Below are positions 10,266 through 40,184 of a stretch of DNA of 46,715 bases, piece after piece. This DNA is from Candidatus Poribacteria bacterium (GTDB lineage Bacteria; Abyssobacteria; SURF-5): the NCBI GenBank assembly GCA_016215705.1, contig JACRIR010000082.1:1-46715 (forward strand), given 5' to 3'. Each line of letters begins with the position of its first letter. The first letter of the stretch is position 1. A model generated the notes under the pieces. It was not told where the DNA came from. It searched no databases and saw nothing but the letters and a program-made list of their open reading frames with translations. Both the position numbers and the translations under genes were made by a program.

Positions 10266-10553
10266 ATGACATCGAAACTAAAGCCCGGCAGGAAATTCAT
10301 AGAAGGCGGGCCGGCGACCTGTACGGACGCGGAGATTCTGGCGATCCTGATTGGCTCCGGAGGCCCGGGGTATTCCGCGATTGATTGCGCGAATGCGATC
10401 CTGAAAAAGTTCGGGACCCTTGCAAATCTCATGGACAAACCGATCAAAGACCTCACACAAGTACAAGGCATAAACACAGTCAAGGCCATAAAGATTGCCG
10501 CTGCTTACGAACTCGTGTGTCGCATCATCGAGCATCTGGAGAAGAACGGATGA
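10266..10553 (+). CDS. RadC N-terminal (UPF0758, HhH) stand-alone protein 1
   Basis: This 95-residue protein matches only the N-terminal helical region of RadC. The LTDAEILAILIGSG-like segment (here T-D-A-E-I-L-A-I-L-I, residues about 20-31) is followed by a helix-hairpin-helix around residues 59-79 (LTQVQGINTVKAIKIAAAYEL). The C-terminal JAB/MPN metallopeptidase domain with its HxHPSGDP motif is absent. HhH motifs usually bind DNA without sequence preference. The stop overlaps the ATG of the methyltransferase gene by four bases (ATGA), so the two are translationally coupled. A homologue with the same coupling to a different methyltransferase is at 40181-40474. No upstream in-frame start exists before a stop codon. 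It is probably a DNA-binding partner of the methyltransferase, which is an inference. Confidence 0.82.
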   Translation: MTSKLKPGRKFIEGGPATCTDAEILAILIGSGGPGYSAIDCANAILKKFGTLANLMDKPIKDLTQVQGINTVKAIKIAAAYELVCRIIEHLEKNG

Positions 10554-12346
10554 ATCCTGAAGAACTGGGTGATGCCAAGATCAGTCGAGCATTCAGGCCG
10601 AAAAATCACCTCAACCGGCAAATACCTCCGGAACCGCACACCGCCATGTATGTCTGGCACAAATATTGGTCGCGCAAGACTTGGAATGTAGTGGGGGAAT
10701 TCATCAAACACTATACGAGAGAGCAGGATGTCATTCTCGATCCTTTCGCTGGTAGCGGCGTGGTGGCGATTGAAGCTGTTCGTCACGGGCGACGCGCTAT
10801 CGTCGTGGACTTGAATCCGGCAGCTAATCTGATAACTGAACTCACGTTGCGCCCGGTAAACCTTCTTAAGCTGCGTGAAGCCTACGTACAAGTTGAGAAG
10901 AAGGTCCGCAAGAAAATCGAGAAGCTCTACGAAAGTCATTGCGTGAAGTGCGACGCTCTGCTCATTCCCGCCTGCTTTGTTCGCGAGGGTGACGCGGTCA
11001 TTGAAGTGCGCTATCCAAAATGTCCTGACTGCGGATATCGGTGTGAGTCGGGAAGCAAACCCAAGAAGGCGGACATGGACGAACTGGAAACACTGGAGAG
11101 AAAGCCAATCACAGAATGGTATCCGAAGGACCCTCTCTCTTACCCCGACGGAGAGCCATTCATGAAGAGAGAACATTTCAAATCCCTTGATCAACTCTTC
11201 ACGCGCAGGAACCTGCGGGCGGTGGCAATTCTTCGTCAGGCAATCGAGGAGGAGAAGTCCCCTCTCACAAGAAAGTATCTCCTGGGCGCCTTCGCCTCAA
11301 TGGTCCATCTATGCACACGCATGATGCCGGTGGGTAACCCACAGCCCACAAATCACTATACGTACTTCAGTTCGCCGGGATGGACGCAGCATAGCTATTG
11401 GTCTGCGCCTCGTTTCATGGAGCAGAACGTTTGGGATCGCTTTGAGGGGGCTGTGCTGGGCCATCAGGGACTCCTAAATGCCAAAGCTGAATCCTCGAAG
11501 GTTCTGCCGAAAATCAAGCTCACGGAGAAATGGAGTGAGGTTCTCTCGGGGCGAGCAGATGTCGCCATAGTCACGGCGGACTGCCTCAAGGCAATGGGGG
11601 AGATGCCGGATGATTCCGTTGACTACATCTTCACTGATCCGCCTTATGACGCCTCCGTGCAGTACGGTGAGCTCTCATTTCTCTGGAACGCTTGGCTGAA
11701 GGAAAATGGTCATTACACGGAACGGCTTATCACGCATGAGATAGTCCGTAACGAGCGACAGAAGAAGCCCTTCGAGGTCTATCACTCGCTGCTGTCTAAC
11801 AGTTTCCAGCAAATGCATCGCGTCCTTCGCCCGGGAAGATACCTGACGCTCACGTTCCATAGTCCAACCTTCAAAGTAAGGAATGCCACTGTGCGGGCGG
11901 GAGTCTTTGCCGGATTCGACTTTCAGAAGATTCATCATCAACCACTTGGGCAGGTTTCGGCCAAGGCTATGCTTCAACCGTTCGGAAGCGCTCAAGGAGA
12001 TTTCTACCTTCGGTTCGAAAAAGCCACCAGCCGCAAGGCCAAACCAATGGAAGAAGTGACCGAAGAGCGGTTCAGACGCATCGTCATGGAGACATGCAAG
12101 AAAGTCATCGCGGAAAGAGCCGAACCCACCCCGTATACGATCCTTATCAATCAAGTTGATCCCGAACTCGCCAAGATGGGGTTGTTCGGAACGCTCAAAA
12201 CCGGCCTGGATGTGAAAACTGCGCTTCAAGATGAGGTCGGTCAAACATTCCGCCTGGTGAAAGCGAAGATCGGCGCCGCCGAAGGTGATCTGTGGTGGTT
12301 CAACGACCCAACCTCTTGCCCAAAGAGCGAAAAGACAACTTCCTAA
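10550..12346 (+). CDS. DNA methyltransferase with embedded zinc-ribbon-like insert
   Basis: This 598-residue protein carries both hallmarks of amino-group DNA methyltransferases: the SAM-binding D-P-F-A-G-S-G (residues 64-70) and the catalytic D-P-P-Y (363-366). About 290 residues lie between them, the alpha-like order in which the target recognition region sits in the middle. That middle part includes two CxxC pairs (C131-x-x-C134 and C158-x-x-C161) that look like a zinc ribbon. DPPY is found in both N6-adenine and N4-cytosine enzymes, so the methylated base is undecided. The ATG overlaps the stop of the RadC-like gene. No restriction endonuclease is recognised next to it, though a small ORF follows. 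It could be an orphan methylase, or part of a restriction or defence module. Confidence 0.85.
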   Translation: MNPEELGDAKISRAFRPKNHLNRQIPPEPHTAMYVWHKYWSRKTWNVVGEFIKHYTREQDVILDPFAGSGVVAIEAVRHGRRAIVVDLNPAANLITELTLRPVNLLKLREAYVQVEKKVRKKIEKLYESHCVKCDALLIPACFVREGDAVIEVRYPKCPDCGYRCESGSKPKKADMDELETLERKPITEWYPKDPLSYPDGEPFMKREHFKSLDQLFTRRNLRAVAILRQAIEEEKSPLTRKYLLGAFASMVHLCTRMMPVGNPQPTNHYTYFSSPGWTQHSYWSAPRFMEQNVWDRFEGAVLGHQGLLNAKAESSKVLPKIKLTEKWSEVLSGRADVAIVTADCLKAMGEMPDDSVDYIFTDPPYDASVQYGELSFLWNAWLKENGHYTERLITHEIVRNERQKKPFEVYHSLLSNSFQQMHRVLRPGRYLTLTFHSPTFKVRNATVRAGVFAGFDFQKIHHQPLGQVSAKAMLQPFGSAQGDFYLRFEKATSRKAKPMEEVTEERFRRIVMETCKKVIAERAEPTPYTILINQVDPELAKMGLFGTLKTGLDVKTALQDEVGQTFRLVKAKIGAAEGDLWWFNDPTSCPKSEKTTS

Positions 12347-21821: not shown

Positions 21822-22316
21822 TTATTGCTCGCGGTGAACGTATAGTTTTTCTTTGAGCCGATGCTCAACGGGCTCCGGCACAAACGCGCTTATGTCACCC
21901 CCAAACTCTATCAACTCTTTGACGAGGCTGGAGCTGATAAAGGAGTAGTTTTCATGAGTCATCAGGAATATGGTCTCAAAGGAGTCGTTTAGCTTTCTAT
22001 TGGTGAGCGCCATTTGGAATTCGTACTCGAAATCCGAGAAGGCTCTGAGGCCACGAACGACACAGCAAGCGTTTCTCTTCCGAACATAGTCCACGAGCAG
22101 GCCGTCGAATGCGTCGACGGTCACATTTCCGAACTTGCCGGTCAGTTCGCTGATCATCTCGATCCTCTCGGATATCGTAAAAAGGCTGTTCTTGCGGATG
22201 TTGTGCGCGATTGCAACAACGAGTTCATCAAATAGTCCCCTTGCGCGCGCGATAATATCCATATGACCGTACGTAATGGGATCAAAACTGCCCGGATAAA
22301 TGCATATACGCTTCAT
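21822..22316 (-). CDS. coaD: Phosphopantetheine adenylyltransferase CoaD
   Basis: This 164-residue protein is full length. It has the nucleotidyltransferase motif Y-P-G-S-F-D-P-I-T-Y-G-H (H18), the V-V-R-G-L-R segment and the C-terminal I-S-S-S-L-V-K-E-L. CoaD transfers AMP from ATP to 4'-phosphopantetheine, the fourth step of coenzyme A synthesis. Its ATG overlaps the stop of larC by four bases. The gene has no functional link to its neighbours that I can see beyond sharing the operon. Confidence 0.97.
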   Translation of the reverse strand: MKRICIYPGSFDPITYGHMDIIARARGLFDELVVAIAHNIRKNSLFTISERIEMISELTGKFGNVTVDAFDGLLVDYVRKRNACCVVRGLRAFSDFEYEFQMALTNRKLNDSFETIFLMTHENYSFISSSLVKELIEFGGDISAFVPEPVEHRLKEKLYVHREQ

Positions 22317-23497
22317 ATTTGCTCTCCCAATTCTCCTATTGCTGAATTCTTGGCTGCGTCATACACACGCTTGAGCGACACCTTGTGAGCGCGCGCTATT
22401 TTCCTGCAGTCATCGAACTCCGGCGAAACCGACATCAGACGTCCTTCGCCCGCTCCGATCTTGACTTTCACGGGTCCCCACTCGGTGTGGGCGTCGATTG
22501 TCGTGCGGCTCAGCTTCAGCCGCGCTTCGCGGTGGTACCTCACGCCGAACGTGGTCGATTCCGAGAACACCAGCGAGGCCAGCGCGGGAGTATCGGCCGG
22601 CTCGCACAGAACGGTGAGTTGCGTGCCGGGCCGCGTCTTCTTCGCTTGTATCGGCGTCAGATAGACATCGAGCGCGCCTCTCTCGAAAAGCAGCTCCATC
22701 AGGTATTCGAAGAACTCGGGGTTCATGTCGTCGATGTTAGTGTTCATGACCACGATGTCGTCGCCGGCGAAGGCTTCGGTCGACTCGCCGACAATGACCC
22801 GAAGCAGGTTCGGCCACTCCGGGAACTCATGCTTGCCCGCGCCATAACCATGAAACAACACACGCTGCGGAGGAAGCGGCCCGAAGCTTTTCACAAGCGA
22901 CTTCAGAATGACCGCGCCGGTGGGGGTAACAAGCTCGGCCTGCGGACCTCGCGAGTATATTGGGATCCCCTCGAGCAGCTTGAGAGCTGCCGGAGCGGGA
23001 ACCGGCAGCACGCCGTGTTTGCACTCCGCAAAGCCGCCACCCACATTGACGGGAGACGCATACGCCTCCTCTATTCCAAGCTCCTCCAGGCCAACCAGCG
23101 CACCGACCACGTCGACGATGGAATCGATCGCACCCACTTCATGAAAGTGGATCTTATCCGGTGTCGTTGAGTGAATCGCAGCCTCGACATTCGCCAGGAG
23201 CCCAAAGATTGCCTTCGCCTTCTGGCGGATCGTTTGCGGCAGGGCGCTCAAGTCGAAGAGTTCTGAAATTTCTTTCAGCCCGCGCTCATGTTGCTGCGTC
23301 TCCTTCACTTCGACAAAGAAGCTTGTCGCGCTCAGATGTCGCCGCGACGTTCTTTCGGCCCGCAGCTCGCAGCCTTTGAGTGGAAGCAGCGACAGAGCTT
23401 TTCGCAAACAGTCTATGTCGAGTCCGGCGTCGAGGAGGGAGCCAATGACCATATCGCCGCTGATCCCCGAGAAACAGTCAAAATAGATATGTCTCAA
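22313..23497 (-). CDS. larC: Nickel-pincer cofactor biosynthesis protein LarC
   Basis: This 394-residue protein is the complete, uninterrupted form of LarC. The N-terminal YFDCFSGISGDMVIGSLLDAG is diagnostic, as are F-H-E-V-G-A-I-D-S-I-V-D-V-V-G and the middle T-P-T-G-A-V-I-L-K block. The C-terminal half carries N-I-D-D-M-N-P-E-F-F-E-Y. LarC uses CTP to insert nickel into the dithiocarboxylated nicotinate ring. In some lactobacilli the protein is made from two ORFs by frameshifting, but here it is one frame. It lies 18 bases after larB. Confidence 0.95.
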   Translation of the reverse strand: MRHIYFDCFSGISGDMVIGSLLDAGLDIDCLRKALSLLPLKGCELRAERTSRRHLSATSFFVEVKETQQHERGLKEISELFDLSALPQTIRQKAKAIFGLLANVEAAIHSTTPDKIHFHEVGAIDSIVDVVGALVGLEELGIEEAYASPVNVGGGFAECKHGVLPVPAPAALKLLEGIPIYSRGPQAELVTPTGAVILKSLVKSFGPLPPQRVLFHGYGAGKHEFPEWPNLLRVIVGESTEAFAGDDIVVMNTNIDDMNPEFFEYLMELLFERGALDVYLTPIQAKKTRPGTQLTVLCEPADTPALASLVFSESTTFGVRYHREARLKLSRTTIDAHTEWGPVKVKIGAGEGRLMSVSPEFDDCRKIARAHKVSLKRVYDAAKNSAIGELGEQI

Positions 23498-23515: not shown

Positions 23516-24265
23516 CTATTTCCGACTGGCGATAAGGCTCGCAAAATAGCCCGCGCCGAATCCATTGTCGATGTTGACGACGGAGACGCCGGGCGAGCAC
23601 GTGTTCAGCATTCCCAGGAGCGCAGCCAGTCCGCCGAAACTGGCCCCATAGCCAATGCTGGTTGGAACGGCCACGACAGGACATTCTACCAGACCGCCGA
23701 CGACGCTTGCAAGCGCGCCCTCCATCCCGGCCGCCACGACCACAGCGTCCGACCTTGATATGTCGTGTCTGCGGTCGAACAGCCTATGGATACCGGCGAC
23801 GCCGACGTCGTACACGCGCAACACGCGGCAGCCCATCATATCAGCCGTCACCGCGGCCTCTTCCGCCACGGGAATATCAGACGTGCCCGCGGTCACGATG
23901 GTGACGTTGCCTTTGCGCCTCTTTATCGGGCGCACCGTAATGGTCATCGCACGCGCGTCGGAATTATACTCTGCGCCCTTATGGACTGCATGGACCGACT
24001 CGAAAACCTCGCGAGAAACTCTTGTGGCAAGCACGTTGCACTCGCGCTCAACCATCTTGTCGACAATGGCCATAATCTGTTCCGGGGTCTTATTCTCGCA
24101 CAGGACCACCTCGGGAAACCCCCTCCTCAAGTGCCGGTGGTGATCGAGTTTGGCGAATCCCAGGTCCTCATATGGCAACTCCTTCAGTGACACCATCGCT
24201 TCTTCAATGCTCATCTTGCCGTTTGCCACAGCGGCCATTATCGAGCGCAGTTTGTCGGGGTGCAT
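23516..24265 (-). CDS. larB: Nickel-pincer cofactor biosynthesis protein LarB (PurE-like)
   Basis: This 249-residue protein has the LarB N-terminal region, with [11 protein letters not shown] and R-R-G-F-P-E-V-V near residues 35-55. A PurE/AIR-carboxylase-like C-terminal domain follows, with [27 protein letters not shown] and V-P-T-S-I-G-Y-G. LarB carboxylates nicotinic acid adenine dinucleotide and cleaves it to begin pincer cofactor synthesis. larC is next, while larE and a LarA-type racemase are not in the window. The gene begins 19 bases after the giant AAA+ gene and shares its transcript. Confidence 0.95.
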
Positions 24266-24284: not shown

Positions 24285-27200
24285 TCATATTCTCTTTTTG
24301 TTCGCTTTCTTGTACAGGTTTCCGAAGAGCGGCTCCTTCTTGTATCGCTTCGACATGCCTATTACAAGGAGGATGTCGCGCCCCGTGATTTCTTCCATGA
24401 TAGCGCTGAGATATCCTGACGCGGAAGCGGGCAGCTTTTGAACGTTGTCGCAGTCATCGATAAGGATCACGTGCGACTTGGCGAGTCTGTTGAGCAAACC
24501 GCTCCAGTCGAAGGATGAGGTGAGAAGCAGCATCTCCGCGAGTTTCGACACCGGAAGCAGCGATACCCGGCCGGTAAACATTCCTTGCAGCCTGTTGGCC
24601 AGAGCGTTGAAGAAATGGTTGCGTCTCCCTGCGTCATCCTCGACAATCAGCAGCGGGAATTTGTTTCGCCATTTCTTGTTCGGATTGCGGAATGCCTCCT
24701 CGAATTCTGCGAAGACCTGGTTTCCACGGAAAGTGGCCGCGGTGAGAGCCGGGTCCGGCGCCAACAATTGATCGAGAAAATCCCTGCCGCGCGTGGGCGT
24801 AGGAGGTGGTTCGACAGGCTTGGCCTCTTTGGGCGTCTTGCTTTCCTCGGGCGCAGGGAGTGGATGGGGGACCGCTTCGGCGGCGACCTGCGGCTGTTCT
24901 ACAGGTATTTCCGGATGATTCTCGAGCTTGGCAAGCAGCCCGCCTTCGAGGAACCGAAGGAGGTATTCCTGGAGACCGCCCAGCCTTATGGGAGGCGCAG
25001 CGGCCGCGATTACGACTTGTGCATTCTGTTCTACGAGCGCCTGGAGGAACTCGCATACTTTGATTTGAATTTCCGACGCGGCGTTCATCGCTTCAAAATC
25101 GTCAATCATGAAGAGCCGGATCGAGTCAAGCCAGTGATCGAGCGTCTCCGGAGCAGTCCGTATCGTGTCCACAAGCGCAGGCACGGAAGTGATCTCGCAT
25201 GTCATGTCAGGGTGTTCCGAGGTGGACAATTGCCCTATCGCATGAAGAATATGCGTCTTCCCGCACCTCTTCGGGCCGTAGATGCACAGAGGATTGTAAA
25301 GCTCGCCCGGATTTCGCGCTATTTTCTCAGCCACGCTGACCGAGAAGGCAGTTCCCTCGAACGTCTTGAATTCCTCAAATGTATGTTGCCATTGAATCCG
25401 GCATGGGGGCGCAGAAGGCGACTCGGTGACAACGACCGGCTCTCGCTCTTCCGCCTGCTCAGGAGGTTTCGTCTCTTCTATTCGGGCAGCCTCCGGGACT
25501 GGCTGTTCCTCCGTCCGGGCAATTCTCTCGGCCATCAGTCTCTCGATTTCGGCTTCCATGCGCGAAAGTTCGGCTTTCAAGGATGCCGCCTGCTCGCGTT
25601 CCCTCGAGAGTTCGTCTTCAAACGCTTTGCGCGACCTTGCCAATTCGTTCACGGCATTCCTTACGTCTTCTTTCAACAAATCCACAACCTTCTTGTGCTC
25701 CGTCCTCGACTCCGAAGCCTCTTTGTCTTTCGATGCAAGGGCCGCAGCCAGCGCCTCACGAGCGCGGGCTTCCGCCGAACCCATGTCTTTGTCCTTGTCC
25801 GCAGCGTCTCGTTCGAGTTCTGCGACGCGCGCACGCAGCTCGTCCTGTGAGCGCGTGGCCTCGGAATCGAGTTCCGCGAGGCGGGTTTCGAGAAGTCTGG
25901 CTTTTTCCTGCAAGGACCCGGCCTCTTCCTCAGCCACTGCCTTTTCGGCGGCAGAAGAAGCGGATTGCGCCCTGGCATTGTCCGCTTCCGCCTTCATCCT
26001 GTCGTGAGCCGATTGGATCTCGGAATACTCCAATCGAAGCGCTGCCAGGGCCTTTTCCCTTGCCGAAAGTTCCGCTTCGAGGGAAGAGAACCGCTCCTTT
26101 ACTTCTGTGCCCTCCGCAGTTTTCCTCAAGAAATCCGCGCGCATCGAATCGAGCGTCTTACGGAGTTCGGACTGACGGCGCTCTTTTTCCTCAATTTGCC
26201 GCGCCGAGCGAGAAAGCTCTTCCTGCGCTTGTTTAATCGATTGTTCGTGCTGCTTACACTGCTGCGCTGCGTCCGCTGCCGCTTTCTCAAGCTCGGCTAT
26301 TCTCTCGCAGGCAGTGCGGAGTCTCGATTCCACCGCAGTGTTCGTGTCGCAGAATTCCTTTCCCTTTCTTGCCCATTCGGCGCGTTCGCGGTCCGCGGTC
26401 TCCGCGAAGGATGCGCGCTCGCTCTCGATCCGGGCTGCGAGTTCGGAAATGCGGGCCTCGGACTGTTCAAACGAGGCCTGCGCCTCGGAGAGACGGTTCT
26501 CGACTGCGGCAAGCTTGCGTTCGGCCTCCGAAGCGGCGCCTGCAGCCAGTTGCTCGGTCCGCTGCTTTTGCTCCGTCAACGCCGACATTCCTGCCTCGAG
26601 TGAAGAAAGCTTCTCAGACAGCTTCTCAATGTGTTCGGCGCTCGAATCGAGGTCTCGGCTCCTGGACTGTAATTCGCGGGAGAGTTTCTGACAATCTTCC
26701 TCACGTCGCTCGAGTTCTTCCCTCAATTTCGCGATGTGTTCCGACTCGCCTTTTTCCTTGGCCACCAGCAGTTGCTCGGTTTGCCTTGCCTTGTCCTCGA
26801 GCCGCGATATCTCCGTCTTGAATGCTTGTATCTCGAGCGTCGCTTCCCGAAGCTTCCCGTCCAGAAAAGCCTTGGCGTCGGAAAGCGCTTTTTCCTGTTC
26901 GGCTCGCAAGGCTTTCTCGCGATCAAGAGCCTGAGAGGAATCCTTCTGAGCTTTTTGGAACTCCGCGGCGGCAGTGGAAGCCCGAGCCTCGGTCTCCTGT
27001 AGTTTCTCTTGAAGCTCTGCGACCTTCTTCTCCGCTGCTCCCAGTTTTCTGGTTGAGCTTTCGATTTCAGCGGAAAGTTTGGCTGTTGTCCTTTCTTTCG
27101 AGTCCTTGAGGGCCGAGAGTTCTTTGGCGCCCCGCTCGATTTCAGCGGCGAGTTTCTTTGCGTCTTTGTCCTTTGACTGAAGCTCGGATTCCCGGTTCGC

Positions 27201-29777
27201 GAGTTCCAACCCGAGCTTCTGCATCTCGACGCCATGCCGCTTGAGTTCTTCTTTGTGGCTACTGATGCGTTCCGCCGCCTCTCGCTCACGGGCGGAAAGC
27301 AATTGTTCGCGGTCTGCCAACGCGTTTTGGAGCTCTTCCAAACTCGCTCCGAGTTGCGCTATTGTTCCATCCTTCTCCGAAAGCGCCGCCTCCCTCTCAG
27401 CAGCGGATTTTGAGAGGTGAGAGACCCTCTCCGCGAGCGAGTTCGCTCTGCGCTCCAGCGCATCCCGCTCGGAACGGGCTTCGTTCATGCGCTGGGCAAG
27501 CGCGGCGTTCTGAGAACCAAGCTTTTCGATTTCGACCTTCGATGAATTCAGACCTGCTTCGAGCGAGGCCGCGCGACCCGAAAGCTCTTTCACATGCTGT
27601 TCGCTTGCGTCGGCCCGGGACCTCTCGGATTCAATGGATTTCCGGAGGTCGCCAATCTCGTTCCCAAGCTTTGCTTCGCGTTCGGAAAACGCCGCAAGCG
27701 CGCTATCCTTCTCCGAGATGACGCGACGCAGTTCCGCTCGTTCGGCGCCGCTTGACTCCCTGACCTCCTCAAGCGAGCCTGAGAGCGAGGCGAGGTCGTC
27801 TTCCAATCTTCGCCTTCTCTGGATTTCGTGTTCGAATCTGGCCGCCAATTCGGAAGCCCGCTTTTCGCTTTGCTCCCGCTCTTTGCTTACAATCTGTATG
27901 TTCTTCTGCAGCTCGGCGGACTGGGTCTCCGCCTCCGCCTTGATTCGGTGTATTAGATTCTCCCTGGCTTCGAGCTCCTGGACAAGTTTCCCGTGCTCCC
28001 TATCGATTGAGTCACGTTGTTCGATCACCTTTGCGAGTTCGGTCGATTGCGATTTCAGTTGGCCGTCCAGCTTGCCGGCGCGATCATTCAGATCATCGAG
28101 TGACTTGCTCAGTCGCTGCTTCTCGCCGTCGGTCTCTTCGAGTTGCTTGCGGAGCCGCGCCGCTTCCTTTGCCTGGCCCGAAAGGCTGGTTTCACGCTGT
28201 TTCGATTCAGCGTCCAGTTTCTGCCTCAGGGTTTCCAGTTCTTTCTCAAGTTTCTCGCGTTCCTTGCCGGCGGAATCACGTTGAGAAACAACATTTGCGA
28301 TTTCGGACGCCTTCGATTTCAGTTGGTCGTCGAGTTCACCGAGGCGTTCAGTCAAGTCTCCGATCGACTCGTTCAGGAGCAGGTTCTCGGTGTGCGCCTC
28401 TTCGAGTTGTTCGCGCAATTGAGCCGCTTCCTTGGTTTGCTCCGTAAGGCGGGCTTCGCGCTCCTCACGCAAGAGCCCCAGCTTCTGTCCCTTGTCTTCA
28501 AGTTGTATTCTCAAAGCGAGAAGCGTATCTTCGCTATCCTTCTTCAGTCGGTCGAGTTGCGCTTGCAGTTTCTTTTCCGACTCCTCGGAGTTTCTCCTTC
28601 CTTCCAGGCTTGCTGTCAACTGCTCCGATGCTTCGGCGAACTTCCGTTCCAATTCCTGCAGCCGGAAATCCTTTTCAGCGAGCGCTTTCTCGTGATCTGC
28701 CCTGAGCTTGTCCGCGAGTTTGTCACGTTCCTCGATATCTTTCTTGAGACGAGCCACTTTATCGGGAACCGTCTTCTCGAGGGATTTCAGGGCGGCTTCC
28801 TTCTTGCCGATTTCCGAGTCCCGTTTCTGAATTCGTGTGGCCAGGCCGGTGGCCGCGGTTTTTGCCGCCTGTTCGTTGAGCTTCGTGGCCTCGAGCTCAG
28901 CCTTCAGATCCTCCGCGCTGCGAACCCGTTCGGCGAGACTACTTTCGAGTTGCAGGATTCTCGCGTTGAGGTCGCGCTCGCGCACCCCTGCCTTTGACTG
29001 CACCCATGAGCTGTATATCTGCTCCGTCGTGGCGGAGCTCTTGTTTTCGCCCGCTTCTTCGCGGACAATGGAGAGAAACTCTTCGACTCTCTCTTTGTTC
29101 AACTGCTGGCGCGTGAGTGTGGAAAACGTCTTCAAGTGGGACGGCAGCTTCTTCAGATAGAGGATATCGCCACCGGCTTCCATCATCAATAGCTTGAGGA
29201 TTTCGACGTCCAGCCGCATACCTGCGCGCTCACACTCGCGCTTAAGAATCTTGAACAGTGTCTCCGGTCGAGGCCCGGAAACGAGCGCATCTATTCCGCC
29301 GCGCAGCCGGCTCAGGAAGCGTTCGTTGAAGCCGTCGAGGCTTTCGATCGGCAAGGCGGAAGCGAACACGATCTGTTTTTCGTTGTCAATGAAAGTGTCG
29401 AAAAGCGCGTAGAACCTGCTGCAGATTTTCGGGTCTTTTCTGAATCGTTCAATATCGTCGGCGATCAGGATATCCATGCGGCTGTATGTCTTGTATATGA
29501 ACTCCTGCGAGCCGCCATTCGAGCCGTCCGGCTGGTTGCCGGAGAGGAGTTTCTCGACGGGAAATTCGTCGGAGATGCAGAGGAGGGAAACTTCGGGATG
29601 CGCCGCCGCCAGTTCATTCTTGATGGCCGAGAGAAGATGTGTTTTGCCTGAGCCTCTTTGGCCATGAATGAAGAGAGGCGAATAGCCTTTTTCCCGATTG
29701 ACCACGGCCTTGCACAAGGCGACGGCAAATCTGTTGGAGTCGTCGACCTCGTACGAGTCCATCTTCAGATCAGGCAC
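24285..29777 (-). CDS. Giant coiled-coil protein with three DnaA-like AAA+ domains
   Basis: This 1,830-residue protein begins with a DnaA/Hda-like AAA+ domain (residues about 1-240). It has Walker A G-Q-R-G-S-G-K-T (39-46), Walker B I-L-I-A-D-D (103-108) and a sensor-like N-E-R-F-L-S-R-L segment (151-158). Residues about 262-1415 are continuous heptad-type coiled coil rich in Glu, Lys, Arg, Ala, Ser and Leu. A linker leads to a second DnaA-like domain (about 1459-1620) with G-P-K-R-C-G-K-T (1501-1508) and L-F-M-I-D-D. After a proline-rich linker, a third domain (about 1668-1830) keeps the Walker B V-I-L-I-D-D but has lost Walker A. No DnaA domain IV helix-turn-helix is seen. The GTG start overlaps the tldD stop by eight bases, and an in-frame ATG at 29762 is an alternative. 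The plan resembles SMC/Rad50, with AAA+ instead of ABC heads. The function is unknown; chromosome organisation or a cytoskeletal scaffold is a guess. Confidence 0.9.
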   Translation of the reverse strand: MPDLKMDSYEVDDSNRFAVALCKAVVNREKGYSPLFIHGQRGSGKTHLLSAIKNELAAAHPEVSLLCISDEFPVEKLLSGNQPDGSNGGSQEFIYKTYSRMDILIADDIERFRKDPKICSRFYALFDTFIDNEKQIVFASALPIESLDGFNERFLSRLRGGIDALVSGPRPETLFKILKRECERAGMRLDVEILKLLMMEAGGDILYLKKLPSHLKTFSTLTRQQLNKERVEEFLSIVREEAGENKSSATTEQIYSSWVQSKAGVRERDLNARILQLESSLAERVRSAEDLKAELEATKLNEQAAKTAATGLATRIQKRDSEIGKKEAALKSLEKTVPDKVARLKKDIEERDKLADKLRADHEKALAEKDFRLQELERKFAEASEQLTASLEGRRNSEESEKKLQAQLDRLKKDSEDTLLALRIQLEDKGQKLGLLREEREARLTEQTKEAAQLREQLEEAHTENLLLNESIGDLTERLGELDDQLKSKASEIANVVSQRDSAGKEREKLEKELETLRQKLDAESKQRETSLSGQAKEAARLRKQLEETDGEKQRLSKSLDDLNDRAGKLDGQLKSQSTELAKVIEQRDSIDREHGKLVQELEARENLIHRIKAEAETQSAELQKNIQIVSKEREQSEKRASELAARFEHEIQRRRRLEDDLASLSGSLEEVRESSGAERAELRRVISEKDSALAAFSEREAKLGNEIGDLRKSIESERSRADASEQHVKELSGRAASLEAGLNSSKVEIEKLGSQNAALAQRMNEARSERDALERRANSLAERVSHLSKSAAEREAALSEKDGTIAQLGASLEELQNALADREQLLSAREREAAERISSHKEELKRHGVEMQKLGLELANRESELQSKDKDAKKLAAEIERGAKELSALKDSKERTTAKLSAEIESSTRKLGAAEKKVAELQEKLQETEARASTAAAEFQKAQKDSSQALDREKALRAEQEKALSDAKAFLDGKLREATLEIQAFKTEISRLEDKARQTEQLLVAKEKGESEHIAKLREELERREEDCQKLSRELQSRSRDLDSSAEHIEKLSEKLSSLEAGMSALTEQKQRTEQLAAGAASEAERKLAAVENRLSEAQASFEQSEARISELAARIESERASFAETADRERAEWARKGKEFCDTNTAVESRLRTACERIAELEKAAADAAQQCKQHEQSIKQAQEELSRSARQIEEKERRQSELRKTLDSMRADFLRKTAEGTEVKERFSSLEAELSAREKALAALRLEYSEIQSAHDRMKAEADNARAQSASSAAEKAVAEEEAGSLQEKARLLETRLAELDSEATRSQDELRARVAELERDAADKDKDMGSAEARAREALAAALASKDKEASESRTEHKKVVDLLKEDVRNAVNELARSRKAFEDELSREREQAASLKAELSRMEAEIERLMAERIARTEEQPVPEAARIEETKPPEQAEEREPVVVTESPSAPPCRIQWQHTFEEFKTFEGTAFSVSVAEKIARNPGELYNPLCIYGPKRCGKTHILHAIGQLSTSEHPDMTCEITSVPALVDTIRTAPETLDHWLDSIRLFMIDDFEAMNAASEIQIKVCEFLQALVEQNAQVVIAAAAPPIRLGGLQEYLLRFLEGGLLAKLENHPEIPVEQPQVAAEAVPHPLPAPEESKTPKEAKPVEPPPTPTRGRDFLDQLLAPDPALTAATFRGNQVFAEFEEAFRNPNKKWRNKFPLLIVEDDAGRRNHFFNALANRLQGMFTGRVSLLPVSKLAEMLLLTSSFDWSGLLNRLAKSHVILIDDCDNVQKLPASASGYLSAIMEEITGRDILLVIGMSKRYKKEPLFGNLYKKANKKRI

Positions 29778-31122
29778 TTGTTCCCCCGACAGTTATCCCG
29801 GTGATCCGCACTGTGGGTTGAGCATCGGAAACAGGCGCACCCTGGCCGTCTTTCCCGCATGTGCCCACCGCAAAACCGAGATCGCTCGCCACCATATCTA
29901 TCTGGCCGAGCACTTTCATTGAATTCCCGATGAGAGATGCGCCGCGGACCGGCTCCTGTATCTGGCCTCCGCGGATCATGTGCGCTTCACTAACCTCGAA
30001 CATAAAGTCGCCGTTTATCGTGTTGACCTGACCGCCGCCCATCTTCCGCACGAACAAACCTTTTTCCGTGGACGCGACGACGCCCTTGGGGTCCATTATT
30101 CCCGGGACAATCAGAGTGTTGGTCATCCGCGGGACCGGACGGTGACGGTACGACTCGCGCCTGCCGTTACCAGTGGACCTGCGGCTATCTTTTCGTGCAG
30201 TGGTCAGGTCATACATATAGGTCTTCAGAACCCCGTTTTCCACGAGCGCCGTGCACTCAGCCGGGGTTCCCTCATCGTCAAACGTAAACGAACCTCGTTT
30301 GCCGGGAAGAGTCGCATCATCGTGAACCGTAACGACTTCGGCAGCCACCTTCTCGCCGATTTTTCCCGCAAAGACGGAAAGCCCTTTTTGCACAAGGTCG
30401 GCCTCAAGGCCGTGGCCGACAGCCTCATGAATCATCGTGCCGCCAGCTTCGCTACTGATTACCACGGGCATGATTCCCGTTGGCGCAGGCGTCGCCCCAA
30501 GCATCTTTAGCGCTTGCTCGCCGGCGGCGCGGGCCACCTTCGCGGGACTGGCGCTGTCAAATATCTCGAAGCCGACGCTCCCGCCAATGGGTTCGTAACC
30601 CGTTTGTACTACGCCGTCCTTACCGGCGACCACTTGTACCACGAATATGATGTGAATCCGCTCGTCAGCCACAAGCAGGCCGTCCGAGTTCGCTATGACT
30701 ACCCTCTGCTGCGAGTCGCCATATCTTACCAGCGCTTGCATGATCTCTCCGCCGAAAGACCACGCAACCTCGTTTCCTTCAAGGACTTTTGAAACCTTGT
30801 CGCTTGCCGGTACGGTCGTCGGGTACCGCAACACTTTTTGTTTGAACTCGAGTGTGTGCGTTTCGGGAAAGACGTACTTTCCGGCAGGGGCATTTACCCC
30901 CTTGCTCACCCGTTCGGCAAGTTCGCGCAAGCCGGAAGGCGTGAGATCATTGGTCGAGGCGTATGCTGTCATCTCACCGACGAGCACCCGGAGACCAGCT
31001 CCCCTGTCGGTTCCACTGATGACGCGCTCGACCTTCTTGTCCTCACAGCCAATTGTCACCGACACTCGTTCCTCCAAGAAAATCTCTGCAAAATCCCCGC
31101 CATTCTTGAGCGCGGCACGCAA
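29770..31122 (-). CDS. tldD: TldD-type zinc metalloprotease
   Basis: This protein of about 450 residues carries the metal-binding H-E-A-V-G-H-G-L-E-A-D motif (H232, E233, H237 from the TTG) and the late G-G-G-Q-V-N-T block of the TldD/PmbA family. TldD with TldE forms a heterodimer that degrades unfolded peptides and trims some natural products. No tldE/pmbA gene is in the window. The start is unusual. The only standard initiator in this frame at the N-terminus is TTG at 31122, which lacks a ribosome site. A strong AAAGGAGG lies upstream at 31162-31169, placed ideally for ATC (31155) or ATA (31152) codons, and no ATG, GTG or TTG lies between. Starting there adds 11 residues (I-I-E-I-I-K-E-F-P-R-I), giving the N-terminal helix usual in the family. 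It is first in the six-gene operon. Confidence 0.88.
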   Translation of the reverse strand: MRAALKNGGDFAEIFLEERVSVTIGCEDKKVERVISGTDRGAGLRVLVGEMTAYASTNDLTPSGLRELAERVSKGVNAPAGKYVFPETHTLEFKQKVLRYPTTVPASDKVSKVLEGNEVAWSFGGEIMQALVRYGDSQQRVVIANSDGLLVADERIHIIFVVQVVAGKDGVVQTGYEPIGGSVGFEIFDSASPAKVARAAGEQALKMLGATPAPTGIMPVVISSEAGGTMIHEAVGHGLEADLVQKGLSVFAGKIGEKVAAEVVTVHDDATLPGKRGSFTFDDEGTPAECTALVENGVLKTYMYDLTTARKDSRRSTGNGRRESYRHRPVPRMTNTLIVPGIMDPKGVVASTEKGLFVRKMGGGQVNTINGDFMFEVSEAHMIRGGQIQEPVRGASLIGNSMKVLGQIDMVASDLGFAVGTCGKDGQGAPVSDAQPTVRITGITVGGTSA

Positions 31123-36947: not shown

Positions 36948-39900
36948 TTACTCGATAATCTTCTTCACAACCTCATCGATGTCTTTCAGTTCCTCTTTCA
37001 GCATTTCGCGCACGAGCCCGCGAAGTTTGCCGATGCTCTGGATTTCGCCTGCGCCGCCTGATGCCAACCAGCGGTCGACCTTCATGCTGCAATCCACCCC
37101 TAGTTCCACCAGTCGGAGATGCTCATCGTCGTTTGCATTGAACTTGGGGATCGGCAACTCGAGAACTTTCTTGCAGATATCTCGTGGCCCCCATAGCCCG
37201 CGACTCTGCATTGGCTTGACCAGATTGTCGATAGTCCGCGCATTCAAGAGAGACGCCAGGTAGTAAGCTTCTCCCTCGTCGTCAGTTTCCATATAAAACA
37301 GCTTGTAGTCCACGATAAATCCGGCTGCCTTAATCCTTTGGTCGCCAATCTTGAACGCAAGGCGGCCACGCTTCTTCACTGTCGCACACATATTTGTTGC
37401 CGACATAGGGTATAGCACTAGATACTTCTTCTGCGGGTTCTGACGTGTCAAACCATGCACCCGATCGAGTCTCTCGTAAATGTTCATCCCTTCCGCTTTT
37501 GATTTTCGTCGTTTGATCCACTCTGCTTCTGCGCTATCCAGCCATTGCTTCAGATGCATAAATCCACAACTGTGCGCCTCGTGAGCATCGATAATGCGGA
37601 AATGGTCACTCTCTGCCTTAAGGGGGAGTATGACCATTCGATGAGCCAGATGTCCAAACGGAAGAAGATCGGTTGAGAGGATCGTTCCATATAAGAAGTC
37701 GCGTTCGACATTCCCGTCGAGTTTTGCATCTTGATATGATGCTTTAGCCTTCTCCGTGGCTCTCGGGTCTGTTTCCAATGGTGGAAGGTCAGGGTCGAAG
37801 CCGAGAGGCGACGATTTCACATGAACAAACCAGAACGACCGCGGCACGATCGTTGCGCCTTCCGTGAACCATTTCCAATAGAAGCTTTGGGGGTTTGAGG
37901 TCACAGCTTTCCCCGTTCCCCAGAAGGAGCGCTTGCCACGTTGATGAAGCGATATTTCGACGTTGTCCACCTGAAGAGATATCTCAGCTTCTTCGAGAGA
38001 TGCGTTTTTTCGGTATAGCTTCCCGTTGAGGATTTGTCCCATGATCGGATACTTTGTCTCCGCGACGGCGCTCTTCTCTGCGATCAAAACGCATGATGGC
38101 ACGTTGAACAAGGGCACAATGTTCTCACAGTCCCACACTTCTCTCCATAGAAGCGACTGGCCGGCGCTCACATTCAACTTGAAGGAGCCTTTTCGAAGCC
38201 CATCATGTTGGTCAGCGCTAAACAGACTCCTCGGCAATACAAATGCAATTGTGCCACCTGCTTTCAGGTACAGGTCTGCGGCGCGGACGAGGAAAAGCGT
38301 CCCTAGTTCGAGATGAGTAATAAGCTCACCACGTCCCGCGAGGAGCTCATATGTCTCCGTGATCTGTTGCCTTAGGAACGATTGGTAGCTTGGCTCAGCA
38401 TATCGGAACGAAACCCATGGCGGATTGCCTACAACAAAGTCAAACCTCGACCTGAAGAAGAGGGGCTTGTATATATTCTTGAGAACAAATGCCCAAATCG
38501 AGTCGCGGTCGGCATCGATAAAGTGTTTGAGCGCGACCGCGATTCCGAACAGCGCACGAATAAAAGCCTCATCTTCGGTTCGGGGAAATCGTTGCGCCTT
38601 GAGCAAACTTGTGAAGCCTTCAAGCGAGATGGGTTTCCCTTTATTCTGGAGAGCGTAATCCCTGGAAAGATCGATTGCGCGATCACAAAGGGCCAAGTCC
38701 TTTAGCAATTCTTCAGGAAGATAGACTTGTCGGCCGTTTAGTCTGACTTCATAGTCGACGGTCTTATCCCCAGCCCAAGGCTCGGGCAAATTCATCGTGT
38801 CAGCAAGATAAATGGGTATGGTTATCTTGCCTTTGCGCTTCTTTAGTAAATCACCCAAGGCCAGAATATAGTTTGTCTTTGCGATTACGACAGCAAGTGG
38901 GTGAATATCTACTCCGCACACAGATTCTAAGAGGTGTCCAAGTGTCTCCGCAGAATCTTTGAGCCGCTCGCGCTTTTCACGAATCGCCAGATAAAGGAAT
39001 GTACCGGAACCACATGCGGGGTCGAGCAAACTGCCGCGCGGGTTTTCATCCAGCAATTTGCGGACAAGGCGGTGCGCCAGCCAGTCAGGTGTGTAGAACT
39101 CACCCAAGTCGTGCCGCGTCTTAGGGTCGACCAATTCCTGATACAACGATTTCAACACATCTTCGGACAGTTCCCGCAGATTGTAGTTCTGGAGTAAGCT
39201 GAACAACCAGCGAACTGCGCCAACGCTGGCTGTTACTGCTTCCGACCTGGCGAGCCAGGAGAAAAAATCTTCTTCAATGAAGTTCTCGATTCCCTGATTC
39301 TTGAATAGTCGGCCTTCAATCATTTCGATGATTTGGCTAGCGCCGGGCAGGCCGGTAGTCTTGCCAATCCGAAGCCAAGACATGAGCTTTGCTAACGTCG
39401 CCAAGTAGGTATGACGGACAAAAAGCTCGTCGCCTGCAACCTCGCTTCCATATACGATGCGCAAGTACTTTTCCCAACCGTCATAGACAACAACAAAGGC
39501 GCTTTGCGTCTTGATTTCCCGCCACAGCGTAAGCAGCGAGTTCATGGTTGTTCGAAATGCGTGGCTTCTTACGCCGAAATCCCGCACAATCATCTCGCTT
39601 GTCGGACATAGAATTGTCTTTCGGAAAAAATAGCGATCGAGCCAGTAGAAAACTTCCTCTGGTTTGAGTTGCGTCCAGTCGGGAGATTCAAGCACCTCGA
39701 GAATAACGTCATCGGGCGCGACATCTTTTGCTTTTCCATCGGAGAGCTTCGGCGAGTAGGTCACGAAGCGGACGCCGTCGGTGGCGATGCAAAGGTATGG
39801 GGTGCGGGCGTCGGGGGATTCCTGCGACCAGAGGATTGCGGTATAGCGGCGGAGTTGGCCCTCGGCTTCAGTGCGTTTTTTCGGGATGTTGCTCTCAAAC

Positions 39901-40184
39901 TCGATGATCACATTGCCGAAGAGGTTGTCGGCTTTTCCCTTGAGAATGCGATCCTTCTGTCTTACGGTCAGAAACTGCTCGATACCCTTTACGTAACCAT
40001 CAATGAAGTTGGGATTAACGTCAAAGAGTTGTTGGAGCAATGCGGCAAAACGATGCGAGCGGGCTTGTTCATTGTTCAACGGCTCGACTTCTCTCAGGTA
40101 TTGCGGAATAATTTCGCCAAGTTGCTTTTGGCGCGTGTCAGAAATTCGCGTGGGTTTCTCGCCAAGCTTCTTCGGCTTTTTCAT
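36948..40184 (-). CDS. Type IIG-like restriction/adenine methyltransferase (Eco57I-type)
   Basis: This 1,078-residue single-chain protein has an N-terminal region with a possible PD-(D/E)xK-type nuclease core (D86 and I-I-E-F-E around 93-97). A helical connector leads to the methyltransferase core, with L-G-E-F-Y-T-P (360-366), the SAM site D-P-A-C-G-S-G (388-394) and the N6-adenine motif N-P-P-W (587-590). A long C-terminal part is likely to hold target recognition, and several segments there resemble Eco57I-type specificity regions. This gamma order is typical of enzymes that cut and methylate with one polypeptide. The ATG overlaps the TGA of the RadC-like gene by four bases. Whether the nuclease is active is unproven. 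Confidence 0.87.
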   Translation of the reverse strand: MKKPKKLGEKPTRISDTRQKQLGEIIPQYLREVEPLNNEQARSHRFAALLQQLFDVNPNFIDGYVKGIEQFLTVRQKDRILKGKADNLFGNVIIEFESNIPKKRTEAEGQLRRYTAILWSQESPDARTPYLCIATDGVRFVTYSPKLSDGKAKDVAPDDVILEVLESPDWTQLKPEEVFYWLDRYFFRKTILCPTSEMIVRDFGVRSHAFRTTMNSLLTLWREIKTQSAFVVVYDGWEKYLRIVYGSEVAGDELFVRHTYLATLAKLMSWLRIGKTTGLPGASQIIEMIEGRLFKNQGIENFIEEDFFSWLARSEAVTASVGAVRWLFSLLQNYNLRELSEDVLKSLYQELVDPKTRHDLGEFYTPDWLAHRLVRKLLDENPRGSLLDPACGSGTFLYLAIREKRERLKDSAETLGHLLESVCGVDIHPLAVVIAKTNYILALGDLLKKRKGKITIPIYLADTMNLPEPWAGDKTVDYEVRLNGRQVYLPEELLKDLALCDRAIDLSRDYALQNKGKPISLEGFTSLLKAQRFPRTEDEAFIRALFGIAVALKHFIDADRDSIWAFVLKNIYKPLFFRSRFDFVVGNPPWVSFRYAEPSYQSFLRQQITETYELLAGRGELITHLELGTLFLVRAADLYLKAGGTIAFVLPRSLFSADQHDGLRKGSFKLNVSAGQSLLWREVWDCENIVPLFNVPSCVLIAEKSAVAETKYPIMGQILNGKLYRKNASLEEAEISLQVDNVEISLHQRGKRSFWGTGKAVTSNPQSFYWKWFTEGATIVPRSFWFVHVKSSPLGFDPDLPPLETDPRATEKAKASYQDAKLDGNVERDFLYGTILSTDLLPFGHLAHRMVILPLKAESDHFRIIDAHEAHSCGFMHLKQWLDSAEAEWIKRRKSKAEGMNIYERLDRVHGLTRQNPQKKYLVLYPMSATNMCATVKKRGRLAFKIGDQRIKAAGFIVDYKLFYMETDDEGEAYYLASLLNARTIDNLVKPMQSRGLWGPRDICKKVLELPIPKFNANDDEHLRLVELGVDCSMKVDRWLASGGAGEIQSIGKLRGLVREMLKEELKDIDEVVKKIIE

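Follow-up and report, generated by a model that had tools for sequence, protein, structure and literature searches.

DnaA is usually regarded as the initiator of replication, and its known relatives, Hda and DnaC/DnaI, are few and small. Hda acts on DnaA through an arginine finger and carries an N-terminal clamp-binding motif ahead of its AAA+ domain, and Hda and the DnaC/DnaI/IstB loaders are DnaA-clade proteins without domain IV, each made of one AAA+ module with no coil. ATPase parts at both ends of a very long coiled coil are the plan of SMC, Rad50 and MukB, in which these parts are ABC half-ATPases and a hinge is present. The protein described here is encoded in the 46,715-nucleotide stretch of DNA that we analysed (the window), from a genome of Candidatus Abyssobacteria, a lineage of the deep subsurface about which little is known, and has features of both groups: a DnaA-clade AAA+ head stands in front of a very long coiled coil, and a second head and a nucleotide-dead AAA+-like domain stand behind it. 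Its gene lies in the following setting.

24285..29777, minus strand: the giant gene, 1830 aa, GTG start
29770..31122, minus strand: tldD, upstream; its stop overlaps the start of the giant gene by 8 bp in 3/3 genomes
23516..24265, minus strand: larB-like gene with an AIR carboxylase domain, directly downstream of the giant gene
22313..23497, minus strand: larC-like nickel-insertion gene
21822..22316, minus strand: coaD-like nucleotidyltransferase gene

The reading frame runs for 1,830 codons with zero internal stops and is followed, all on the same strand, by larB, larC, coaD and a permease gene; none of the operon genes (tldD, larB, larC, coaD, permease) names a partner or cargo. The giant gene is present in 3/3 Abyssobacteria genomes, which are all of the phylum in our sample, so that the conservation statistics rest on n=3; the proteins are 1830, 1714 and 1662 residues long, and larB-larC downstream and the tldD overlap are common to all three genomes. 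The overlap (window 29762-29790), kept at 8 bp in three genera, suggests that translation of a protease subunit is coupled to that of a rod protein, for a reason that is not obvious. Elsewhere in the window, one large gene reads like a DNA methyltransferase or restriction enzyme (36948-40184, minus strand) and another like a DNA methylase (10385-12346, plus strand). In a pattern scan of a genome collection, the named orthologue on contig QZKI01000055.1 of SURF_17 was the closest among the matches listed, and beyond SURF_17 these matches were ordinary DnaA proteins only; since the pattern was generic for DnaA and the matches listed are part of a larger set, further orthologues may exist.

The three-domain order that the earlier note had read from a single sequence recurs identically in 3/3 orthologues, from three genera. 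In the window copy, with all parts on the minus strand, it is made up as follows.

29046..29777, minus strand: N-terminal DnaA-clade AAA+ head with lid, residues 1-244, from PF00308 and DnaA structures
29640..29663, minus strand: Walker A of the N head, GQRGSGKT, residues 39-46, from the orthologue alignment
29454..29474, minus strand: Walker B of the N head, DILIADD, residues 102-108
29307..29309, minus strand: arginine-finger position of the N head, R157, in the box VII SRL, from the DnaA alignment
25503..29027, minus strand: coiled-coil region, residues 251-1425, proline-free over 339-1425, from heptad periodicity against shuffles
28428..28544, minus strand: conserved coil segment around LLALxIQLEDK, residues ~412-450
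25398..25502, minus strand: proline-rich linker from coil to second head, residues 1426-1460
24906..25397, minus strand: second DnaA-clade AAA+ core, without lid or arginine finger, residues 1461-1624
25254..25277, minus strand: Walker A of the second head, GPKRCGKT, residues 1501-1508
24780..24905, minus strand: disordered Pro/Glu-rich linker, residues 1625-1666, AF2 pLDDT 40-58 over most of it
24288..24779, minus strand: third AAA+-like domain, nucleotide site dead, residues 1667-1830
24288..24359, minus strand: basic C-terminal tail, the last 24 residues, net charge +8 in 3/3 orthologues

Pfam Bac_DnaA (PF00308) matches the protein twice (E 7.9e-49 for the whole protein), the N head at E 7.1e-26 and 91.8 bits and the second head at E 2.2e-23 and 83.7 bits, against a cut-off of 23. 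The best sequence matches of the N head among structures are DnaA (E 4.7e-27), and its fold aligns with DnaA 8btg over 233 residues (VIA Z 21.8, rmsd 2.6); the second head aligns with DnaA over 163 residues (VIA Z 25.8, rmsd 1.5 A). These scores exceed those to Hda (~17 and 19.5 for the two heads) and DnaC (~17-18). Thus, both end heads lie in the DnaA/Hda AAA+ clade, as had been proposed, and share fold, sequence and both Walker motifs with DnaA domain III (PF00308; PDB 8btg, 2z4r, 2hcb, 3r8f). The Walker motifs of the N-terminal domain and the Walker A of the second head lie where the earlier note had placed them; in the N head, G42, S43, G44, K45 and T46 of Walker A are invariant in the three orthologues, as is R157, the DnaA-type arginine finger, which aligns with the SRF of DnaA. 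The AF2 model of this head (pLDDT mostly 85-93) comprises an AAA+ core and lid helices, followed by a helix from residue 251, while alignment with DnaA proteins puts A/S at the sensor-1 Asp and L/A at the sensor-2 Arg. The second head had been called intact, which is accurate for Walker A and Walker B; the sensor-1 Asp is replaced in the DnaA alignment, the sensor-2 Arg is absent, the arginine-finger position is Phe in 3/3 orthologues, and in the AF2 model the domain stops after the AAA+ core, with a disordered proline-rich linker in place of the lid. That linker (1625-1666) retains 18-33% identity between orthologues. An active DnaA-type ATPase is defined by a full catalytic set of lid, sensor-1 Asp, sensor-2 Arg and box VII arginine finger; the N head has the lid and the finger only and the second head none of the four. 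The set is not required for membership of the clade, and the giant protein belongs with DnaA-clade AAA+ proteins. It is not itself a DnaA equivalog (TIGR00362, 220.7 bits, below the cut-off of 343.9), and in a tree of 49 DnaA-type domains each of its two heads makes up a separate clade on a long branch, the two clades being joined to each other. This joining may reflect long-branch attraction, and we make no claim that one head arose from the other by duplication.

The third domain is recognised less directly. It has no Pfam match in the window copy, its matches in a PDB sequence search (best E 0.22) are to long helical stretches and no better than chance, and a direct profile-profile comparison by hhalign with three-row alignments gave a probability of ~1%, too low to be of use. 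At the same time, AF2 models it at pLDDT ~80-86 over most of its length, with strands and helices in the same succession as in the second head as far as the box VII helix, and Foldseek/VIA alignments extend across the second head and the third domain onto both AAA+ rings of p97-type proteins. With a DnaA-superset profile the domain obtains 5.5-12.9 bits, against shuffle maxima of 3.4-6.6; 1/804 shuffles scored as high as the real sequence for one orthologue and none did for the other two, and the aligned part runs from the Walker A region to the Walker B region. When a profile of the domain was run against 383 other genomes, the two best non-orthologous matches were DnaA-type AAA+ proteins, aligned in register. 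In the window copy EDDAGRRN occupies the position of DnaA's GxxGxGKT, both by eye and in the profile alignment, and the nucleotide site is therefore gone. The earlier reading of a third DnaA-like domain that has lost Walker A is thus upheld by fold, shuffles and genome search, and its claim of a DnaA-style lead-in fares poorly here, where the lead-in is weak. The related claim that each end is a complete AAA+ module is not supported, since lid and arginine finger are absent from the second head and Walker A from the third domain. Even so, the third domain is as conserved between orthologues as the N head (58-64% against 58-65% identity); the second head stands at 41-52% and the coil at 32-38%. 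No orthologue of this domain was found outside Abyssobacteria in two largely overlapping samples of ~385 genomes each, and no relative in the viral contigs or plasmids searched.

Between the heads, residues ~281-1425 have a hydrophobic period of 3.5-3.55 with a power ~6-7x the shuffle mean in 3/3 orthologues, which bears out the ~1,150 residues of coil first estimated. The longest proline-free stretches are 1,087, 1,070 and 1,013 residues, and AF2 models helices at 251-330 and, as one continuous helix, at 341-519. At 0.1485 nm per residue the rod would measure ~171 nm if fully helical and extended, in agreement with the earlier ~170 nm. The coil region is ~1,175, ~1,040 and ~990 residues long in the three orthologues and the heads are constant in length, as expected of a spacer; the differences, of up to ~185 residues, lie mostly behind the LLALxIQLEDK segment, and a heptad-phase comparison of the indels shows anchors that differ by non-multiples of 7. 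That segment, the best-conserved part of the coil and a candidate kink or binding site, is separated from the coil start by exactly 169 residues in 3/3 orthologues and coincides with a dip in heptad periodicity (~393-448) in all three. Reading through the coil sequence revealed no CxxC zinc hook.

Overall, we believe, tentatively and with slightly less than even confidence, that the giant protein is an ATP-gated, self-assembling long tether or scaffold. Consider a set of such chains in the cell. The coil would form an extended rod, most likely parallel and dimeric, of up to ~170 nm, and the N heads may pack head to tail like DnaA protomers through bound ATP and the R157 finger. With neither the sensor-1 Asp nor the sensor-2 Arg of DnaA, the N head would serve as a clamp for assembly or a slow switch rather than as a motor. 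Since the second head, predicted to bind ATP, has neither arginine finger nor lid, any finger would have to be supplied by a neighbouring element, either an N head or perhaps the basic helix that ends the C-terminal domain. That domain, with its +8 tail, would be a docking site for a fixed partner, whether protein, membrane or nucleic acid, and the rod would link an ATP-dependent cluster of N heads to a distant C-terminal anchor.

What such a tether might carry is addressed by the first alternative, in which pilus and chemosensory gene clusters have taken up the DnaA AAA+ fold as an ATP switch and the giant protein serves one such machine, for surface motility, type IV pili or chemosensing, as a long scaffold or polarity factor. 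We consider this rather unlikely; a pilus or chemosensory role concerns cargo and is compatible with the tether mechanism. Three more DnaA-type proteins, including a canonical DnaA, are encoded in the giant's own genome, and two DnaA-type genes there stand beside PilB-/PilT-type genes: a 445-aa MshEN-DnaA protein (L029:3637-4974, minus strand) is flanked by MshEN/T2SSE (PilB-type) and PilT-type genes, while a 352-aa DnaA paralogue with domain IV (L028:2686-3744, plus strand) adjoins another PilB-type gene. A 1999-aa MshEN-DnaA-spacer-DnaA protein from another phylum (L186, G150:C14) resembles the giant in having DnaA AAA+ domains near both chain ends and a long helical middle, of ~1,300 residues; it sits inside a type IV pilus cluster (G150/G288) with genes for a prepilin peptidase, PilT-type/T2SSE and PilC-type/T2SSF proteins, a PilS-type kinase and an NtrC/PilR-type sigma-54 regulator. 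Unlike the giant, it has MshEN in front and heads much closer to DnaA, and its spacer, with 20 prolines in 1,260 residues, shows no heptad peak, whereas the giant's coil is heptad-periodic; it thus parallels the plan without being an orthologue. The giant's C-terminal profile detects no third domain in the genomes that carry it. Its phylum has 9-13 DnaA-domain matches per genome. Double-DnaA-domain proteins of ~700 aa (G106, G242 and G062, at L195, L196 and L197, and G203, at L174) likewise have two DnaA AAA+ modules, but a short helical linker of ~150-180 residues, and at the G106, G242 and G062 loci they neighbour DUF4388, CheW, CheC/CheX, CheR and TPR genes. In a separate set of proteins of up to 2,132 aa (L027:4958-11356, minus strand, L189 and L190, in G014, G301 and G162), long TPR-like arrays are followed by a DnaA AAA+ domain at the end of the chain, and in 2/3 the opening segment resembles, on reading, a CHC2/DnaG zinc finger. 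A surface role also accords with the description of Ca. Abyssubacteria as motile (PMC6121073). The giant gene, however, lies in the tldD-larB-larC-coaD operon, away from pilus genes, its product has no MshEN domain, and its heads do not group with the MshEN-DnaA proteins but in their own long-branch clades. The recurrence of DnaA-type modules in pilus and chemosensory clusters nonetheless makes a role in surface machinery a serious rival to a chromosomal one.

The chromosomal reading, in which an SMC/Rad50/MukB-like organiser folds back on its coil so that the heads meet and bridge DNA, is decidedly unlikely. It has in its favour the head-coil-head outline, the hint of DNA in DnaA ancestry and the basic C-terminal tail, and SMC models do match the coil, SMC_prok_B reaching 89 bits against a cut-off of 567, probably because of composition. 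At the same time, no hinge-like, non-heptad island of 100-200 residues interrupts the coil midpoint in any of the 3 orthologues, and the AF2 helix at 341-519 is continuous, so that 'SMC-like', the earlier note's term, describes a resemblance of outline only and has no support as a fold-back. The heads are AAA+ modules with no ABC signature, and they do not keep the residues of the DnaA initiator-specific motif, at the positions taken to correspond to it. The domain IV helix-turn-helix (PF08299) has no match in the giant protein up to E 1, though it is matched by the 352-aa paralogue from the same genome; in its DNA form, the earlier suggestion that the protein could bridge two sites gains no direct support from heads that have no DnaA domain IV. 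A chromosomal role is thus without direct support. DnaA ancestry alone suggests it, where the wider family suggests a pilus or chemosensory one.

A replication regulator of the Hda/SirA kind, whose N head would form mixed oligomers with DnaA and switch it off while the coil tethers the complex elsewhere, strikes us as very improbable. Such a mechanism could use the invariant R157 finger of the N head, the absence of domain IV is shared with Hda, and the genome encodes a canonical DnaA as a target. Yet the closest folds are DnaA and not Hda, the Hda equivalog model gives 99.2 bits, below its cut-off of 194.8, and the AAA+ module begins ~5 residues from the N-terminus, too close for Hda's clamp-binding motif to fit in front of it; no clamp- or helicase-binding extension of the Hda or DnaC/DnaI/IstB type was seen in the giant protein. 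Finally, there is virtually no chance that the gene is an assembly fusion of separate genes, as the earlier note had cautioned, or a decayed frame: a single continuous frame, the domain order and the 8-bp tldD overlap are shared by three genomes whose proteins differ by 35-60%, dN is well below dS in the heads and C-terminal domain (0.24-0.50 against 1.4-2.0 or saturated, between orthologues, for the globular parts), and we found no point in support.

The giant protein seems to be undescribed. Searches of the open-licence literature on DnaA fusions, MshEN+DnaA, DUF4388+DnaA and DnaA-like domains turned up no such proteins, in keeping with the earlier view that no family with this plan is known, a view that must now be qualified by the analogous DnaA-spacer-DnaA plan in another bacterial phylum. 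Together with the DnaA modules of type IV pilus and chemosensory clusters, the giant protein indicates repeated use of the fold for tasks other than replication, a pattern that also seems undescribed. It is possible, if on balance doubtful, that the Abyssobacteria proteins are a class of their own among long-range tethers under ATP control, made with DnaA-clade AAA+ modules instead of ABC ATPases and linking two cell structures more than 100 nm apart. If so, this class is one extreme of the recruitment of the DnaA AAA+ fold outside replication, to which type IV pili and chemosensory clusters also belong. Compared with DnaA, the giant protein lacks domains I/II and IV, has the arginine finger in its N head and carries a coil of some 1,150 residues; compared with SMC, Rad50 and MukB, it replaces the ABC half-ATPases with AAA+ modules and has no hinge. 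In this context, it is a DnaA AAA+ module in three degrees of degeneracy, mounted on a rod that exceeds the SMC rods in length, and the nucleotide-dead copy is conserved as well as the live one.
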